This document shows positions 34,297 to 53,386 of a stretch of 64,000 nucleotides of DNA, one piece after another. How positions within the stretch are numbered: position 1 is the stretch's first letter; each line of letters begins with the position of its first letter. Made by a program: the position numbers and the translations under genes. Origin of the DNA: Futiania mangrovi. Lineage in GTDB: Bacteria > Pseudomonadota > Alphaproteobacteria > Futianiales > Futianiaceae. The notes under the pieces were generated by a model. That model had not been told where the DNA came from, made no database searches, and saw nothing but the letters and a program-made list of their open reading frames with translations. The stretch is from positions 62,001 to 126,000 of the forward strand of contig NZ_JAMZFT010000004.1 of assembly GCF_024158125.1 (NCBI RefSeq), given 5' to 3'.

Positions 34297-34489
34297 ATGC
34301 CAGTTCTTCTGACAAGCCCGGCATGTCAGTTTCCGTTACACCGTAGAAAGCGCAGAACCCATCAAAGATGGGCATTTATGAGCGCGGCAGACCTCGGTTC
34401 ACAGTGTGGGTGTCGGATTGCTTTTCAGGTATGAGTTAGCAATGGCGCTCAAATCGCGATACGCAATTGAAAACAGAGGGGGGCGTACT

Positions 34490-34505
34490 TGGAACAAATT
34501 TTGCT
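34490..34505 (+). promoter_or_regulatory. Sigma-54 (-24/-12) promoter of PEP-CTERM-like protease
   Basis: TGGAACAAATTTTGCT matches the consensus TGGCACG-N4-TTGCW at all but two positions and keeps the invariant GG (34491-34492) and GC (34503-34504) exactly 10 bp apart. It lies 49 bp before the protease ATG. PEP-CTERM genes in other bacteria have been linked to sigma-54 control through PrsK/PrsR. A matching element precedes the small sorting-signal gene at 51762. Confidence 0.68.
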
Positions 34506-34553
34506 TGCTCCTTACCCTTAAGACCTGCGCTGCGAGAAATCCAAGTGTGAGCC

Positions 34554-35378
34554 ATGTTCGGAAAAGACCTAATTCGCTCAGTTTTAACCGCCCTCGGGCT
34601 TGTGTTTCTTTGCGCAGGTTCGGCGCACGCCGTGCCACTCGGCGCCAGCACGCAAGATAGCTCGTCCGTTTATCCATATGTCGGCAGCGTGTATTATGGA
34701 AGTTGGGGCTCCGGTATCCTCATCGCTCCGGACGTTGTTCTAACGGCCGGGCACGTAGTTGAAGAGGCTCTCTCCTATGCCGGCACGAGCGTATTCCTGA
34801 CCGGTGTTGGGCCTTTCACCACCACACCGCCGGAAACAGCCACATCTATAATTGGCGGGATTTTGCATCCGTCCTATGATCCTTCTGTATTTGGCGAAAA
34901 CGATATCGGAATTTTGTTTCTCAGCGCCAATGTAAACCTTGCTCAATATAGCGTGCTTTTCGCCGAGCCCGCGAGTGGTCTGGGTGGGGAGGCGGCTTCT
35001 GTAGTGGGCTATGGCTTGAACCTGACGCGCCGCATAGGCTCGCTAGCCATCGATAGCGCGTATACAACCGACAATGCAATTTGGGCATTCGACAGTAGCA
35101 TCCCAATGGTCGAAGGCGGGGACAGTGGAGGCGGTTTATTCGTGGAGCGTGGGGGTCAGCAATTATTGGCGGGAATTACCTCCTTCACAAGTATTTCAGC
35201 CCCTTATTATTCATATTTTGTATCAGTAAGTGGGTTCCGTGAATTCATCGACGGCAACGCCCCTCAAGCCCAATGGTATGGTGGTGCGAGGCCTGTCTCG
35301 GAACCGTCGGCTGTCGTCGTGTTTGGCCTCGCGATCATTGGCCTCCTCTCCGCAGCAGGCCGCCCTAGATCGCAATAG
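34554..35378 (+). CDS. Trypsin-like serine protease with PEP-CTERM-like sorting tail
   Basis: The 274-residue exported protein has a signal peptide to about residue 26 (SAHA). The chymotrypsin-fold catalytic triad is His67 in TAGH, Asp117 in ENDIGIL and Ser191 in GGDSGGG. A C-terminal tripartite tail follows: SEPS (249-252), a hydrophobic helix and a basic end (GRPRSQ), the form of exosortase-processed PEP-CTERM signals. The coding sequence is clearly lower in GC than the surrounding genome. A sigma-54 promoter match precedes it, and an exosortase is encoded 15 kb away. It is flanked by a MITE-like element and an IS6 remnant, so it is likely acquired. Confidence 0.88.
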   Translation: MFGKDLIRSVLTALGLVFLCAGSAHAVPLGASTQDSSSVYPYVGSVYYGSWGSGILIAPDVVLTAGHVVEEALSYAGTSVFLTGVGPFTTTPPETATSIIGGILHPSYDPSVFGENDIGILFLSANVNLAQYSVLFAEPASGLGGEAASVVGYGLNLTRRIGSLAIDSAYTTDNAIWAFDSSIPMVEGGDSGGGLFVERGGQQLLAGITSFTSISAPYYSYFVSVSGFREFIDGNAPQAQWYGGARPVSEPSAVVVFGLAIIGLLSAAGRPRSQ

Positions 35379-41904: not shown

Positions 41905-43548
41905 TTACCCGGAAAACCTGATTCCGCTGCGAACCATCGGTAGGGCGGCCGGTATGGGCTGTCCGATCGCGAGGATCGCGTTGGCCAGATCGGTCTCGGA
42001 GGCTTGGTATTCAGGCGTGGTTCGCACCATTTCGAACAACTCAGCCTTGAGCGCGTCGGAACTGCGAGACTCGGCGGCCGAGAAATCCCAGCTCACCTCA
42101 AGCGCGTCGCGTGCTTGGAAGGCGGCCCAGGTGGTTTCGGCGTAGACCATGACGCCCCTGTTGTTGGGCATCTCGATAGCCATGATGAAACCGGGAATGA
42201 TGCGCGCGGCGCTGTCGTCAAAGGTGGCGACCGTCCCGCCGAGACGTGGCGCGCGCCTGATCGCGACGACCATCTGGTTGTCCAGTTGAACGTCCATCGA
42301 GAACTGTGCCGAGCCGTCGATCTTCGCTGGGGTGTCGAGCCGGCCCTTCTGGTCGACGCCGATCACGCGCCACTCGGACGGGTCCTTGAGTCGCGGTTCG
42401 GCGGGTACGTCGCGCGTTGCGGCAGCGGCTACGAAATCGCCGATCCCTGCCGAATGGCCGGCACCGGAAATGATGCCGTCGCGAAGGATCGGGTTCGACG
42501 GGCGGACACCCCAAGCCTCGGCGGCGGCGCCAATCAACATTTCTCGGGCTGCGGCCGCCGCGGTCCCATACTGCATGAAGGAATTCGCCATCGCCGTCGA
42601 GCCGCCGGTACCTTGCGAGCCGAAGAACAGATTGGCGTAGCGTGCGTTGTCCGCAGGGGCCATCTCGAACCTGATGTCCTGGAGCGACATGTTCAACTCT
42701 TCGGCGATGAGCGCCGAAAGACCGGTGGCCGTGCCCTGGCCGCCTTCGAAATGCTTGATGATGGCGGCGATGGTGCCGTCATCCTGTGCCTTGCGGTCGC
42801 CCAGAAGGCGGTCCGCATCGGGACCGGCGCGGAAGCGCAGGCGGTCTCCGGTCTCGTTGGCCGCGTCCCAGATGACCCCGGCGACGACCTCGGGCGCGGA
42901 CGGGTCGGAGGCTAGCTTGCCGAAGAGACGTCCCATCGCCTCGGCCGTGGGGGCGTAGTCGGAGAGACTTTCGTCCATCGCGAAATCGAAGGACCGGCCG
43001 CCGAAGTCCGTCTTGATCATGCCCGGCTCGACGATTCGCACCCGGATGCCGAGCGGCTCCAACTCGTAGTGGAGAGCCTCGGACAGGCCTTCGACCGCGA
43101 ACTTCGTGCCGTGATACAGCGTGCCGAGCGGGAAGGTGATCTGCCCGCCGATGGAGGAGATGTTGACGATCGTGCCGGAGCGATTGGCCCGCATATGGGG
43201 CAGCACGGCCTTCGTCACCTCGAGGAGCCCGATCACGTTGGTGTCGAACTGGCGACGGATCCGCTCGGTCGAGAAGGCTTCGAGCGCACCATAGGCGCCA
43301 TACCCGGCGTTGTTCAGGAGCACGTCGATCTTGCCGAACCGGGAGATGCCGCCTGCGACGGCGTCCGAAATGGATCCCGCATCGGTGACGTCGAGCCGGG
43401 TGACGAGGACGTTTTCCAGACCGTCAAGCTCGGCTGCGGTAGACGGGTCGCGCATTGTGGCGATCACGGTCCAGCCTTCGGCCTGGAAGCGTTTGGCGGT
43501 TGCCCTGCCGATGCCCGAGGAGGCTCCTGTGATCAGGATGGTTTTCAT
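41905..43548 (-). CDS. In-frame chimera: SDR fused to IorB-like molybdopterin subunit pieces
   Basis: A 547-residue open frame. Residues 1 to about 258 are a nearly complete SDR (TGASSGIG, NNAG, catalytic YHGTK at 145-149, FRAGPDADRLLGDRKAQDD near its normal end). From about 259 to 515 it becomes the interior of an isoquinoline 1-oxidoreductase beta-type molybdopterin subunit (IIKHFEGGQGTATGLSALIAEEL, FFGSQGTGGSTAMANS). The last 30 residues (TDLANAILAIGQPIP) resemble the C-terminal tail of such subunits, with some hundreds of residues missing between. It lacks the Tat/N-terminal part of IorB. It was probably formed by deletions near IS6 remnant 3. The SDR half could be active. Confidence 0.8.
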   Translation of the reverse strand: MKTILITGASSGIGRATAKRFQAEGWTVIATMRDPSTAAELDGLENVLVTRLDVTDAGSISDAVAGGISRFGKIDVLLNNAGYGAYGALEAFSTERIRRQFDTNVIGLLEVTKAVLPHMRANRSGTIVNISSIGGQITFPLGTLYHGTKFAVEGLSEALHYELEPLGIRVRIVEPGMIKTDFGGRSFDFAMDESLSDYAPTAEAMGRLFGKLASDPSAPEVVAGVIWDAANETGDRLRFRAGPDADRLLGDRKAQDDGTIAAIIKHFEGGQGTATGLSALIAEELNMSLQDIRFEMAPADNARYANLFFGSQGTGGSTAMANSFMQYGTAAAAAREMLIGAAAEAWGVRPSNPILRDGIISGAGHSAGIGDFVAAAATRDVPAEPRLKDPSEWRVIGVDQKGRLDTPAKIDGSAQFSMDVQLDNQMVVAIRRAPRLGGTVATFDDSAARIIPGFIMAIEMPNNRGVMVYAETTWAAFQARDALEVSWDFSAAESRSSDALKAELFEMVRTTPEYQASETDLANAILAIGQPIPAALPMVRSGIRFSG

Positions 43549-49149: not shown

Positions 49150-50667
49150 TCAGTGTGTTCCGCGCCGGGCCATGAAGGCTGAGGCGAACTCTAGGAGTAC
49201 GGCGTCGGGCAGCGGGGCCGTTCCTTCGTGTGCGACGACGAGGACGCCCGCCACGGGATGCGCACCCGCCAGCAGGCGTAGCGTGCGTTCCGCGGCAAGC
49301 GCCCGGCGGGAAGGCACGCTCTCGCCGTCGACGTGGAGAAAGGTGTCTGCGAACACCATGCGCGGCCCTTCGGTCTGATCGAGCACAACGGTCTCGCCCT
49401 GAAAGCAATAGCCGCCACCGCACACGCGGCGCGGCCGGCGCTCCTTGATCCACCAGAAGGCGTCTGGCGCGAGGTCGAGCGCCGCGCCCGCAACCTTTGC
49501 GCCGCGGCGCGCCGCCAGCGCCTGGAAGACCAGGACTCTTTGCCCGCCTTGCTCATAGACGGCCGCCTGGGTTGCGTCTGCATGCGGCGCGGCCGGGCTC
49601 CAGTCCTGCGGGCCGGTCACCTTCTCCCATCCGCCCACGCTTTGCGGCGCGGAAATGGAGGGGATGGCGGCGGCCGTCAGGCCCGGTGCCGGCCACGCGT
49701 GCGTCACGACGATCGCGGCGGCGGCGGCGGCGCCAGCCAGCGCGACCGCGCGGCGCGGACGCGCAACGCCTGCCTCGCGCACCGGCACGGTATCGCCTGC
49801 CTGGTCGCGCATGCGATAGGCCGCGGCAAGGAGCAGCGCGAGAATGACCGCCAGAACCGCCCACCCCACGCCGCGATGGGCGGAGATGTCCATCACCGCG
49901 CCCTGCCAGTGATTGTAAAGGACGATCAGGTTCACCCTTATGCCGTTCGCTACAATGGCCGCGACGGCCGCCGCCGCAGTCAGCGCCGCGGTCTTCAACA
50001 CCGTACGAAACAGCAGCAGGCCGAGCGTCAGGCCAACGAAGGACGTCGCGAGCAATTCTCCCAGGCCGGCGCAGGCAGCGACCACGGCATAGGGCTGACC
50101 CGCCACGGTGATGTTCAGGCCGTCGCGTACCGTCTCCAGTCCGGCGAGTGCGCTACCCTGCGCGACGAACCAGGCCGTAAGCGATGTCAGCGCCGGCAGC
50201 AATTGCTGGCCTGTCGGAACCAGAAAGACCACGAGCAGCAAGGGCGGCAGCGCCGCCCGGAAGGCATGCGGACCCAATCCCGCGTGCAGCACGCCGACCG
50301 CCATGCCGGCGAGCGCAAGGTGGCGGCCCTCGGCAATGCCGGCGAGGTCCGCAACGCTCCAACCTGCGGCGCACGCGATCGTCAAGGCGACGCCTGTCAG
50401 GCTGCCCGAGGGCGGTTCCTGCAGGATCCGCCCTCGCCGGTCCCACAAGATGTACAGCAGCGTGGGCAACACGAGGAAGCCATGGTTGTAGGTCTCGTTC
50501 GCCGCCCAGATGCGCACCATGTCGGCCGCGGTCGCTGCGTGGGCCGCCAGCAGGCTGACGAGTGCCAGCGCGAGGCCCGCACGTACCATCCCCCATCCGG
50601 GTGCGTATGCGGCCTGCGGTGTTGCCGCGAGGCTTCCGGAGGTTCCTGCGGGATGCGCCCGGCTCAT
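49150..50667 (-). CDS. Exosortase fused to EpsI-like domain
   Basis: A 505-residue membrane protein. Residues 30-290 form the eight-helix exosortase core with the presumed catalytic Cys199 in VAACAGLGELLA, Arg244 in NGIRVNLIVLYNH and His264 in SAHRGVGW. An upstream HGFLVLPTLLYILW motif is also typical. After another helix, residues 320-505 match the EpsI/DUF3485 type domain (PQSVGGWEKVTG, and CGGGYCFQGE with two Cys). Exosortases cleave C-terminal sorting signals at the inner membrane. The ATG overlaps the sterol-desaturase stop by 4 bp. The fusion resembles the XrtD-like arrangement, but the family is not certain. Confidence 0.92.
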   Translation of the reverse strand: MSRAHPAGTSGSLAATPQAAYAPGWGMVRAGLALALVSLLAAHAATAADMVRIWAANETYNHGFLVLPTLLYILWDRRGRILQEPPSGSLTGVALTIACAAGWSVADLAGIAEGRHLALAGMAVGVLHAGLGPHAFRAALPPLLLVVFLVPTGQQLLPALTSLTAWFVAQGSALAGLETVRDGLNITVAGQPYAVVAACAGLGELLATSFVGLTLGLLLFRTVLKTAALTAAAAVAAIVANGIRVNLIVLYNHWQGAVMDISAHRGVGWAVLAVILALLLAAAYRMRDQAGDTVPVREAGVARPRRAVALAGAAAAAAIVVTHAWPAPGLTAAAIPSISAPQSVGGWEKVTGPQDWSPAAPHADATQAAVYEQGGQRVLVFQALAARRGAKVAGAALDLAPDAFWWIKERRPRRVCGGGYCFQGETVVLDQTEGPRMVFADTFLHVDGESVPSRRALAAERTLRLLAGAHPVAGVLVVAHEGTAPLPDAVLLEFASAFMARRGTH

Positions 50668-51521
50668 TCGGCGGCTTCGCCGGCGGGGGGCTGCGCGCGC
50701 CCGGCGTCCGGAACGGGAGCGCCCGCCTGCCGGTCGCGGACGAAGGGCAGCGCGAGTGTGCGCAGGAAGCGCATGTCGTCCGGCTCCCGGAAATACTCGA
50801 GGCCCGCCGTGATCTCGTCCAGACGCTCGCTTTCCGGCGCGCGGTAGGTTCCGAATGTCCGGTCCCAGAAGGAGAAGACCACGCCATAGTTGCTGTCGGT
50901 CTGCGGCTGCCATGTCGAGTGATGGATGAAATGCATTCCCGGCGTCACGAAAATCGTGCGCACCGCGCGATCCAGACCTGCGGGCCATTGCAGGTTGGCA
51001 TGCGACCAGATGGTCACGGCGACCGCCAGGATCGCATAAAGCAGGATACCCTCCGCCGTCAGACCGAGGCCGCCCACGATGGCGAGCGTCAGAACCATGC
51101 TGCCAAGGGTCTCAAGCGGATGGTGCCGCTCTGCGGTGGTGAAGTCGATTTCGGTTTCCGCGTGGTGGACCAGATGCAGGCGCCACAGGAGGGCGGAGCG
51201 GTGCAGGACCACGTGCTCGGCATATTTGCAGGCATCGAGGATCAGGACCGTGGCGGCTGCGGCCAGCCACTCCGACCCGATCAGCGGGCGTAGCAGGCCG
51301 TGTTCGGCGGCAAATGCGGACCCCGCGACCTCGATCGCCGTCGCGGGCAGCACGACGCGGTGCAACAACAGCGTCATGGCATAAAGGCCGCCGTTCGTTG
51401 TCCAGCGGATCGCAAGGCTGACCCGGTGGCGATGCCACGGTGCGAAAAGCTCCAGCAGCGCGAAAACGATCAATGCGACGTAGAAGGCGTTCGCCTGTAC
51501 CAGCGTGATGATCTCTGACAT
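50664..51521 (-). CDS. Sterol desaturase / fatty acid hydroxylase family protein
   Basis: The 285-residue membrane di-iron oxygenase-type protein has four to five helices and the histidine clusters HVVLH (103-107), HLVHH (116-120), RHHPLE (132-137), SHAN and HFIHH (197-201). This is the family fold that hydroxylates or desaturates sterols, fatty acids or carotenoids. It lies between the 51-residue sorting-signal protein and the exosortase, with its stop overlapping the exosortase start. That is an unusual neighbour for an exosortase and suggests modification of a lipid or anchor used in the same pathway. That role is inferred. Confidence 0.92.
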   Translation of the reverse strand: MSEIITLVQANAFYVALIVFALLELFAPWHRHRVSLAIRWTTNGGLYAMTLLLHRVVLPATAIEVAGSAFAAEHGLLRPLIGSEWLAAAATVLILDACKYAEHVVLHRSALLWRLHLVHHAETEIDFTTAERHHPLETLGSMVLTLAIVGGLGLTAEGILLYAILAVAVTIWSHANLQWPAGLDRAVRTIFVTPGMHFIHHSTWQPQTDSNYGVVFSFWDRTFGTYRAPESERLDEITAGLEYFREPDDMRFLRTLALPFVRDRQAGAPVPDAGRAQPPAGEAAE

Positions 51522-51559
51522 CCGTTCTGCCCGGCCTTGTAGCGGCGTCCGGCGAGGAG

Positions 51560-51592
51560 GCGGCCGGAATCCGGGTGCCCGGTGCCGGCCGC
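51560..51592 (-). other. Nested hairpin between the tiny substrate gene and the desaturase
   Basis: An 8-bp outer stem (GCGGCCGG 51560-51567 with CCGGCCGC 51585-51592) encloses a 5-bp inner stem (CCGGG/CCCGG, 51571-51582). It has no T run. Lying 14 bp past the small gene's stop, it could stabilise or partly terminate the transcript so that the substrate outnumbers the exosortase. Inferred. Confidence 0.6.
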
Positions 51593-51606
51593 GCCCCGTC
51601 TGCCGG

Positions 51607-51762
51607 TTACTTTCTGCGGCGCGCCAGATAGACGCCGCCAACCACCGCCGCCGCCGCGAGACCCAGAATGCTGGGGCCGGGCAGGGTCGGCACGGGACCG
51701 CTCGCAAGCGCCGGCGTTGCAAGCAGCACAGCCGGTGCGATCAGGGTCAGGATACGAGACAT
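51607..51762 (-). CDS. 51-residue signal peptide plus C-terminal sorting signal protein
   Basis: The whole protein is a signal peptide (residues 1-20, ending PALA), about ten residues starting SGPVPTLPGP, a hydrophobic helix (SILGLAAAAVVGGVYLA) and a basic end RRRK. This is the tripartite form of an exosortase target with almost nothing between. GGAGGG lies 4-5 nt before the ATG at 51762. It heads the exosortase operon and is preceded by a near-consensus sigma-54 promoter. The motif VPTLPGPS is not the standard PEP-CTERM motif. After both cleavages only a peptide of about 8-12 residues would be released or anchored. Confidence 0.78.
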   Translation of the reverse strand: MSRILTLIAPAVLLATPALASGPVPTLPGPSILGLAAAAVVGGVYLARRRK

Positions 51763-51851
51763 GGAACCCTCCATCATTGTCTCTTCTTGTTTGCCGCATC
51801 CGAAGAAGCGGCAGGGGCGCGCCAGTCCGGCGTCCCCTGGAGGGTCTGACA

Positions 51852-51867
51852 AGCAATAATTGTGCCC
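51852..51867 (-). promoter_or_regulatory. Sigma-54 (-24/-12) promoter of the exosortase operon
   Basis: On the minus strand GGGCACAATTATTGCT keeps the invariant GG (51866-51865) and GC (51854-51853) 10 bp apart and differs from TGGCACG-N4-TTGCW at only two positions. The small gene starts 90 bp downstream. It lies in the 388-bp gap 51763-52150, which also has an AT-rich imperfect inverted repeat (CCCATT...TCAAAT / ATTTGAATGGG, 51865-51917) that could be an activator or enhancer site. No gene is seen in the gap. Confidence 0.75.
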
Positions 51868-52150
51868 ATTTCGCACTCAAATATTTCAATAACTTGCGAC
51901 CATATGATTTGAATGGGTGAAAAGAAGGCTGACGGTGCGTTTTCCATTGTGGAAAAGTCCGGAGCGACGGGGCGAATTCAGTCCCCTGCGCCCTGACCTG
52001 TTTTCAGCAGTCGCTCGATCAACGGGTGTCTTTGCGACCTGTCGAGCACTTGGGATCGCTATCGCCGCAAGGTCGGGAAATGTCGGCGGCGCATGACGTC
52101 GTCCCCCCAGGCGGAGACGGAGGCCCGTTCGCATTGGGCAAAGCGATCTC

Positions 52151-53386
52151 CTATGCCCGCTCGAGAAGCCTGAAAAGTACCCGGACGATCACCCGTGTGG
52201 CCTTCCTGAGATCCTCAAGCGCAACGCGTTCGTCTGCGCGGTGACCGTTGGCCTCCAGAAGTGTTGAAGGACCTGCTCCGTACATGACAGTCGGGATGCC
52301 TGCAGCCGCATAGTGGCGCGCATCGGCGTAGAGCGGCACACCTTCAAGCGGCACGTCGACACCCAATTCCACCTGTGCAGCCTCCGCGACGGTTGCCGCC
52401 AGCGCATCCGAACCGTGTACCGGGCCGAATGGGCGTGCGAGCAGCACCCGCTGTGTGCGCCAACCGATGCCCGGCAGCCCATCAAGCGCCCTTGCGACGA
52501 CGGCTTTCAACTCGGCCTCCACGGCCTCGCAGTCCTCTTCGGGCACGATGCGCCGATCGATGCGCAGAGTGACCTTGTCCGGCACCACGTTCGTGTTGAT
52601 CCCACCCGAGATAAGCCCGATCACCATGGAGGGAGAATCGATGCCCGGTACCGCCGAGTGAATGTCCGCAAGTCCTTTCCGGTAGGCGTAAAGCGCCGCG
52701 AGCAATGTCGAGGCGGCCTCCAGCGCATCGTGGCCGGTGTCGGGTCGCGCGGCGTGAGCGGAGGTCCCGGTCACGGTCACCTCCAGGTGAAGGCACCCGT
52801 TGTGCGCCACGGTGACGGCGTATGAAAAGCCTGCGCAGATCGCGAAGTCGGGCTTCGACAACCCCGTGTCCAGCAGGCGGCGCGGCCCGATCTCGCCGCC
52901 GGCTTCCTCGTCATAGGTCAGGTGGAGTTCGACGGTGCCCGAAAGCTGCACTCCAGATGCAACGAGTGCGCGGAGCGCAAACGCATAGGTCGCGAAATCG
53001 GACTTCGAGACCGCGACGCCGCGCCCGTACATCCAGCCGTCCCTGATCTCCGCGCCATAGGGGTCGGTCGTCCATCCCTCTCCTGGTGGGACGACGTCGC
53101 CATGCGCGTTGAGCGCTAACACCGGACCATCCCCGAACCGGTGACGCACGATCAGGTTGGTCGCCGATACCATTCCGTGAGCCTCGGCGTCCGCTTCGGG
53201 AACCGGATCGCGCGCGACCGTGAACCCCAACTGCTCCAGCAGCGCGGCCGTGCGCTCCGCGTGCGGCGCGCAGTCTCCCGGCGGATTGTCGGATGGCACG
53301 CGCACCAGTTCCGCGAGGAAGGCCGTCTCCTGCGGAAAGGCGCTGTCCACCGCGTCGAGGGCGCGTGCAAGGGTGTCACCGGTCAT
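52151..53386 (-). CDS. M20 family metallohydrolase
   Basis: The 411-residue zinc hydrolase of the ArgE/DapE/CPG2 type has metal motifs LNAHGDVVPPG, YGRGVAVSKSDF and TYDEEAGGEIGP, a dimerisation domain with GTSAHAARPDTGHDA, and a C-terminal GAGPSTLLEANGHRADE. Note Ser instead of the usual Gly after VSK and the Val-Ser in place of Asp-Met of DMKG, which changes a normally conserved metal-site region. It probably deacylates an N-acyl amino acid or cleaves an amide. It is last in the minus-strand catabolic group. Confidence 0.88.
   Translation of the reverse strand: MTGDTLARALDAVDSAFPQETAFLAELVRVPSDNPPGDCAPHAERTAALLEQLGFTVARDPVPEADAEAHGMVSATNLIVRHRFGDGPVLALNAHGDVVPPGEGWTTDPYGAEIRDGWMYGRGVAVSKSDFATYAFALRALVASGVQLSGTVELHLTYDEEAGGEIGPRRLLDTGLSKPDFAICAGFSYAVTVAHNGCLHLEVTVTGTSAHAARPDTGHDALEAASTLLAALYAYRKGLADIHSAVPGIDSPSMVIGLISGGINTNVVPDKVTLRIDRRIVPEEDCEAVEAELKAVVARALDGLPGIGWRTQRVLLARPFGPVHGSDALAATVAEAAQVELGVDVPLEGVPLYADARHYAAAGIPTVMYGAGPSTLLEANGHRADERVALEDLRKATRVIVRVLFRLLERA

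Follow-up and report, generated by a model that had tools for sequence, protein, structure and literature searches.

The operon and its upstream region

The stretch of DNA analysed here (the window, 64,000 nucleotides) corresponds to contig C4, positions 62001-126000, of the Futiania mangrovi genome (G000). On its minus strand it carries a gene for a very small protein, termed mini-CTERM, followed by the genes for a membrane hydroxylase and a second exosortase; the region upstream of the first gene contains a series of candidate regulatory elements. In the direction of the operon, the features are:

51918-51934, minus strand: putative PrsR-type activator box (motif 1), CGTCAGCCTTCTTTTCA, located with a matrix derived from other genomes
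51865-51917, no strand assigned: AT-rich imperfect inverted repeat, read as a probable bendable spacer
51884-51896, minus strand: candidate IHF-like box, CAAGTTATTGAAA, one mismatch to YAANNNNTTGATW, 16 nt upstream of the -24 element
51852-51867, minus strand: predicted sigma-54 -24/-12 promoter, GGGCACAATTATTGCT, from consensus match, matrix score and shuffles
51607-51762, minus strand: mini-CTERM gene, 51 aa, signal peptide and CTERM with no cargo domain, GGAGG ribosome site
50664-51521, minus strand: membrane protein of the fatty-acid-hydroxylase superfamily (PF04116), 285 aa
49150-50667, minus strand: second exosortase, about 505 aa, its start overlapping the hydroxylase stop (ATGA), family Cys, Arg and His kept

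The mini-CTERM begins with an ATG at 51762, 89 nt from the 3' end of the -24/-12 site; the first-pass annotation had given 90 bp. In the protein, the signal peptide runs directly into VPTLPGPSILGL...YLARRRK, with VPTLPGPSILGLAAAAVVGGVYLARRRK joined straight onto the signal peptide; the product has a signal peptide, a Pro-rich turn, a hydrophobic stretch and a basic tail, without a PEP motif. Against TIGR02595 it scores 12.6 bits, under the cut-off of 16, which places it outside the PEP-CTERM proteins as defined by that profile. The original reading of the protein as an exosortase substrate is therefore upheld by its anatomy, but neither by a PEP motif nor by the profile; if it is a substrate, it would presumably be processed by the adjacent exosortase.

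The hydroxylase gene follows after a gap of 85 nt; its product shares the PF04116 domain and the histidine motifs with OlsE-type and other hydroxylases of this superfamily, but stays below the OlsE equivalog threshold (NF052566; 55.8 vs 475 bits). The second exosortase, scored from a frame that opens 26 codons before the likely ATG, reaches 131 bits against the exosortase family (TIGR02602/PF09721; cut-off 105.55), and its best curated match is XrtA (TIGR03109), at 183.7 bits and below the cut-off of 208; it keeps the catalytic Cys, Arg and His of the family, and a separate, true XrtA is encoded in the same genome. Relatives of the second exosortase are found in 14 of 189 other genomes, at only 27-34% identity; used as a query against the genome-contig set and the plasmids, it returned none.

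The -24/-12 element

As first annotated, with correct sequence and coordinates, the GG (51866-51865) and GC (51854-51853) of GGGCACAATTATTGCT are separated by exactly 10 nt. Compared to TGGCACN5TTGCW, 10 of the 11 positions agree, rather than the nine originally counted; the single mismatch is a G in place of the T that opens the -24 element (GGGCAC instead of TGGCAC). With a matrix set by hand from the sigma-54 consensus, the site reaches a score of 16.1 and ranks second among the window positions on both strands, and its score is reached in none of 1000 dinucleotide shuffles of the intergenic stretch 52150-51763. The consensus at up to two mismatches occurs 18 times in the window, against 24.8 expected by chance, so the bare consensus alone is not decisive; at up to one mismatch only two sites remain, at 51867-51852 on the minus strand and at 34490 on the plus strand. 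This second site precedes a gene for a PEP-CTERM-like protease, and the promoter served as a comparator:

34411-34427, plus strand: PrsR-type box, TGTCGGATTGCTTTTCA, 62 nt upstream of the 34490 site
34490-34505, plus strand: second sigma-54 site, TGGAACAAATTTTGCT
34554-35378, plus strand: trypsin-family protein, 274 aa, with a CTERM-like tail

Genome-wide, there are 838 sites with up to two mismatches and at least 31 with up to one (26 listed and at least five more before L068, L069, L070, L071 and L078); among the 26 one-mismatch matches listed, six precede PEP-CTERM-type genes, including the 34490 site, and the site at 51867-51852 is a seventh. A search for a sigma-70-like site in 51400-52300 found none. 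As judged from the shuffles, the -24/-12 site is real and not a chance match, and the transcript is expected to start near 51841.

RpoN, PrsR and a putative activator box

The genome contains one rpoN gene and encodes four strong sigma-54 activators, PrsR (C1:1206225-1207550; 662 bits, cut-off 502.6) and three others. The prsR gene adjoins those for PrsK (595 bits, cut-off 300) and PrsT (535.5 bits, cut-off 312.2) and is clustered with the gene for the true exosortase A (XrtA, 321.3 bits). The first-pass annotation had stated that no PrsR-type activator lies in the window, and this is correct, the prsR gene being on another contig: a search with PF00158 gave seven matches in the genome and none on contig C4, and TIGR02915 matches the window only once, weakly and over profile positions 1-137 (C4:94888-95295). 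Near the prs genes themselves, a motif-1 box, TGTCAATAATCTTTACA, with a sigma-54 site 205 nt further on is found upstream of a small membrane ORF that diverges from prsK (L056:3615-3946, G000 C1, minus strand), and the exopolysaccharide export gene with which the XrtA cluster opens is preceded by a sigma-54-like site, TGGCACGGTTCTTGTT (L055:8483-8704, G000 C1).

In the motif description of Haft et al. (2006; PMC1569441), promoters of PEP-CTERM genes have a 17-nt motif 1 ending in TTTACA, followed by a spacer of 32-92 nt and then the sigma-54 motif (motif 2), and PrsR is proposed as the protein that binds motif 1. A matrix for motif 1 was built from 17 promoters of PEP-CTERM genes in seven other genomes with PrsR, G000 being excluded, and replaced an earlier ad hoc score on the genome's own promoters; of 30 other-genome loci, 12 had been dropped for having no sigma-54 site of at least 11.5, and L105, with a short upstream region, was removed from the remaining 18. 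The consensus of this matrix is near TGTCRGNATTYTTTACA.

With the matrix, CGTCAGCCTTCTTTTCA at 51934-51918 scores 12.9 bits; it ends in TTTTCA, not TTTACA, and lies 50 nt upstream of the -24 element, a spacing within the 32-92 nt of the published description and the same as in three of the training promoters. The five highest positions in the window (of about 128,000) are 34324+, 34411+, 41354+, 34298+ and 51918-; ranks 1, 2 and 4 precede the other CTERM gene of the window and 51918- ranks fifth, so that the two CTERM promoters account for four of the five. The score of the box is reached in 31 of 5000 shuffles of the stretch and in 12 of 6204 random stretches. Sigma-54 site and motif 1 occur together at only two of 11 sampled sites in the genome's own sequence, and these are the two CTERM promoters of the window. 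Across the genome, the pattern GTCRGNNTTYTTTNCA is matched perfectly at two places, 51934-51918 and C3:265514 (reverse orientation, in a PEP-CTERM leader); the pattern was relaxed after the box had been seen and is therefore not counted as independent evidence. In 34298-35378, the trypsin-family gene has three motif-1-like boxes upstream (34298, 34324 and 34411).

The AT-rich repeat

The IHF-like consensus is YAANNNNTTGATW, and the candidate box CAAGTTATTGAAA sits inside the AT-rich inverted repeat, the arms of which are 51874-51882/51907-51915 (9 nt, 89%) and 51865-51870/51912-51917 (6 nt). Boxes with up to one mismatch to this consensus are present in seven of the 17 training promoters (shuffle mean 0.99, as high in 0 of 200), six of them at 17-20 nt from the -24 element, and in four of 15 promoters of the own genome (shuffle mean 0.57, 0 of 200), three of these at other distances. 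The repeat noted in the first-pass annotation exists, but the activator role suggested for it probably does not hold: as the PrsR-type box lies just upstream of the repeat and the IHF-like box inside it, the repeat is probably a bendable spacer and not an activator site.

Sigma-54 sites before the PEP-CTERM genes of the genome

In a scan of the genome for the same motif upstream of CTERM genes, as proposed at the outset, a search with PF07589 returned 14 matches, 12 of them over the cut-off, and in 13 of the 14 the best upstream -24/-12 site scores 12.1-17.8. The fourteenth (L080), which has no such site, is a sub-cut-off match of 11.8 bits in the middle of a protein and was left out of the genome's own PEP-CTERM set. 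In two cases (L067 and L071) the sigma-54 site is more than 200 nt from the likely start. As background, sites scoring at least 12 occur 11 times in 332,692 strand-bases of own sequence that was not chosen by pattern, true sites included.

A good motif 1 (at least 10.7, at 50-94 nt) is present in only five of 15 own promoters, so that sequence alone does not establish PrsR control for the regulon as a whole, and the ten promoters without a clear motif 1 suggest that other activators may serve sigma-54 sites in this genome. An EM motif search on the own promoters yielded an AT-rich pattern only. The dyad TGAC-N6-GTCA, exact in three of the 15 (p ~3e-6, uncorrected for roughly 5,600 words and gaps), is absent from the mini-CTERM promoter and was rejected as a candidate.

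Recurrence of the mini-CTERM-hydroxylase pair

A mini-CTERM of 51-55 residues directly before a hydroxylase gene is also found in two genomes of the same class (G092 and G146) and in two of other classes in the same phylum (G721 and G689). In all four, the pair is preceded by a -24/-12 site, with a motif-1-like box 40-62 nt further upstream; the boxes are weak in G092 (6.5) and G146 (4.8), and the -24/-12 site is modest in G689 (11.3). PrsR matches are seen in G092, G721 and G689, with none returned for G146; within the flanks examined, none of the four has an exosortase gene directly behind the pair.

Most hydroxylase homologues have no linked CTERM gene: in four slightly overlapping sets, a mini-CTERM upstream was found at one of 30 loci (the window's own), one of five, three of 23 and one of 80, the last being a Chromatiales MAG (L289:2451-2639) in which a 62-aa IPTL/XrtH-like mini peptide precedes the hydroxylase, without a sigma-54 site. 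In a quick, unfinished hydroxylase tree of 47 rows, with L123 left out, the five module hydroxylases fall into one group of nine rows with support 90; the module label is as clustered in nine of 500 shuffles, and the module rows are long branches. A paralogous hydroxylase gene in the genome (L188:3574-4567, G000 C2, minus strand) lacks both a mini-CTERM and a good motif 1; a sigma-54 site, TGGCACGCCCCTTGCT, lies roughly 50 nt ahead of its likely ATG.

The near-consensus sigma-54 promoter of the first-pass annotation holds in the light of the shuffles, of the PrsR-type box at canonical spacing and of the recurrence in other genomes; with RpoN encoded and PEP-CTERM genes preceded by such sites genome-wide, a sigma-54 promoter before the mini-CTERM gene is strongly supported as a prediction.

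Proposed mechanism and alternatives

In the reading that best accounts for these observations, 51867-51852 is, with good probability, the core of a sigma-54-dependent promoter that is activated by PrsR and drives the operon in the following way. PrsK would phosphorylate PrsR, and PrsR would bind the box at 51934-51918; the DNA between box and promoter would be bent, possibly via IHF at 51896-51884, allowing PrsR to open the RpoN polymerase positioned at 51867-51852. With a start at about 51841, transcription would then yield, in dependence on RpoN, a single mRNA for the mini-CTERM, the hydroxylase and the second exosortase, expressed together with the PEP-CTERM regulon of the genome.

The alternative that survives best, although it is unlikely, is that the sigma-54 promoter is genuine but driven by another enhancer-binding protein (NtrC- or NtrX-like) in place of PrsR. 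The three further strong enhancer-binding proteins and the 10 of 15 own promoters without a clear motif 1 would allow for this; against it, PEP-CTERM genes in PrsR-positive genomes are preceded by a motif that the box matches, the spacing also occurs in those genomes, and the gene downstream is CTERM-like. It is less probable that the -24/-12 element is a chance match and that the operon is transcribed from a sigma-70-family promoter or by read-through from the M20 peptidase gene upstream, which is on the same strand and has only one weak terminator-like site near its end; two-mismatch matches to the consensus are, indeed, no commoner than expected, but none of the 1000 shuffles reaches the score, 51400-52300 offers no sigma-70-like site, the PrsR-type and IHF-like boxes are at canonical places, and the arrangement recurs in other genomes. 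Just as improbable is an activator site formed by the inverted repeat itself, which is present but abuts the -24 element, leaves the motif-1 box outside and encloses an IHF-like box where six of the 17 training promoters carry one.

Relation to known systems

The promoter is well supported as a new member of a class that is already known, and the operon behind it is an unusual variant of the exosortase theme. Like the promoters in the description of Haft et al. (PMC1569441), it has a motif 2 with GG and GC, a 17-nt motif 1 ending near TTTACA, a spacer in the range of 32-92 nt, and tens of nt to the start codon, in a genome with PrsK, PrsR and PrsT over their cut-offs. It differs in that it stands before an operon with hydroxylase and exosortase genes and not before a single PEP-CTERM gene, in that the first product lacks PEP, and in the IHF-like box noted here, of which the motif description in that paper makes no mention. 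For a PEP-CTERM gene with a -24/-12 element, pepA of Aquincola tertiaricarbonis, RpoN dependence and a mapped start have been shown by experiment (PMC9850573); there, the downstream prsT is reported as not RpoN dependent, whereas here the hydroxylase and exosortase genes lie downstream and the first gene encodes a 51-aa peptide.

In the literature library searched, no paper on the module was found, and none linking PEP-CTERM or exosortase to sterol desaturase, or PEP-CTERM to fatty acid hydroxylase. It is conceivable, though we would hold this only tentatively, that the cargo-less CTERM peptide and the membrane hydroxylase form an accessory module of exosortase systems that is conserved across Pseudomonadota and controlled by PrsR. 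The peptide would then act as a partner in lipid or envelope modification or as a regulator of the exosortase, and not as a surface protein; in Futiania, the module would have gained a private exosortase and its peptide lost PEP, the result being a self-contained unit. The attachment target of exosortase substrates is called an unknown nucleophile in Haft et al. (PMC1569441), and the co-regulated hydroxylase would be a concrete candidate partner. The proposed promoter would also link the second exosortase, the hydroxylase and the peptide, itself nearly a pure sorting signal, to the PEP-CTERM expression regulon, and peptides of 51-55 aa would be minimal natural exosortase substrates, useful for biochemistry.

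Elsewhere in the window, at 41905-43548, a 547-aa frame combines a short-chain dehydrogenase with a partial molybdopterin-binding domain, perhaps a deletion scar.
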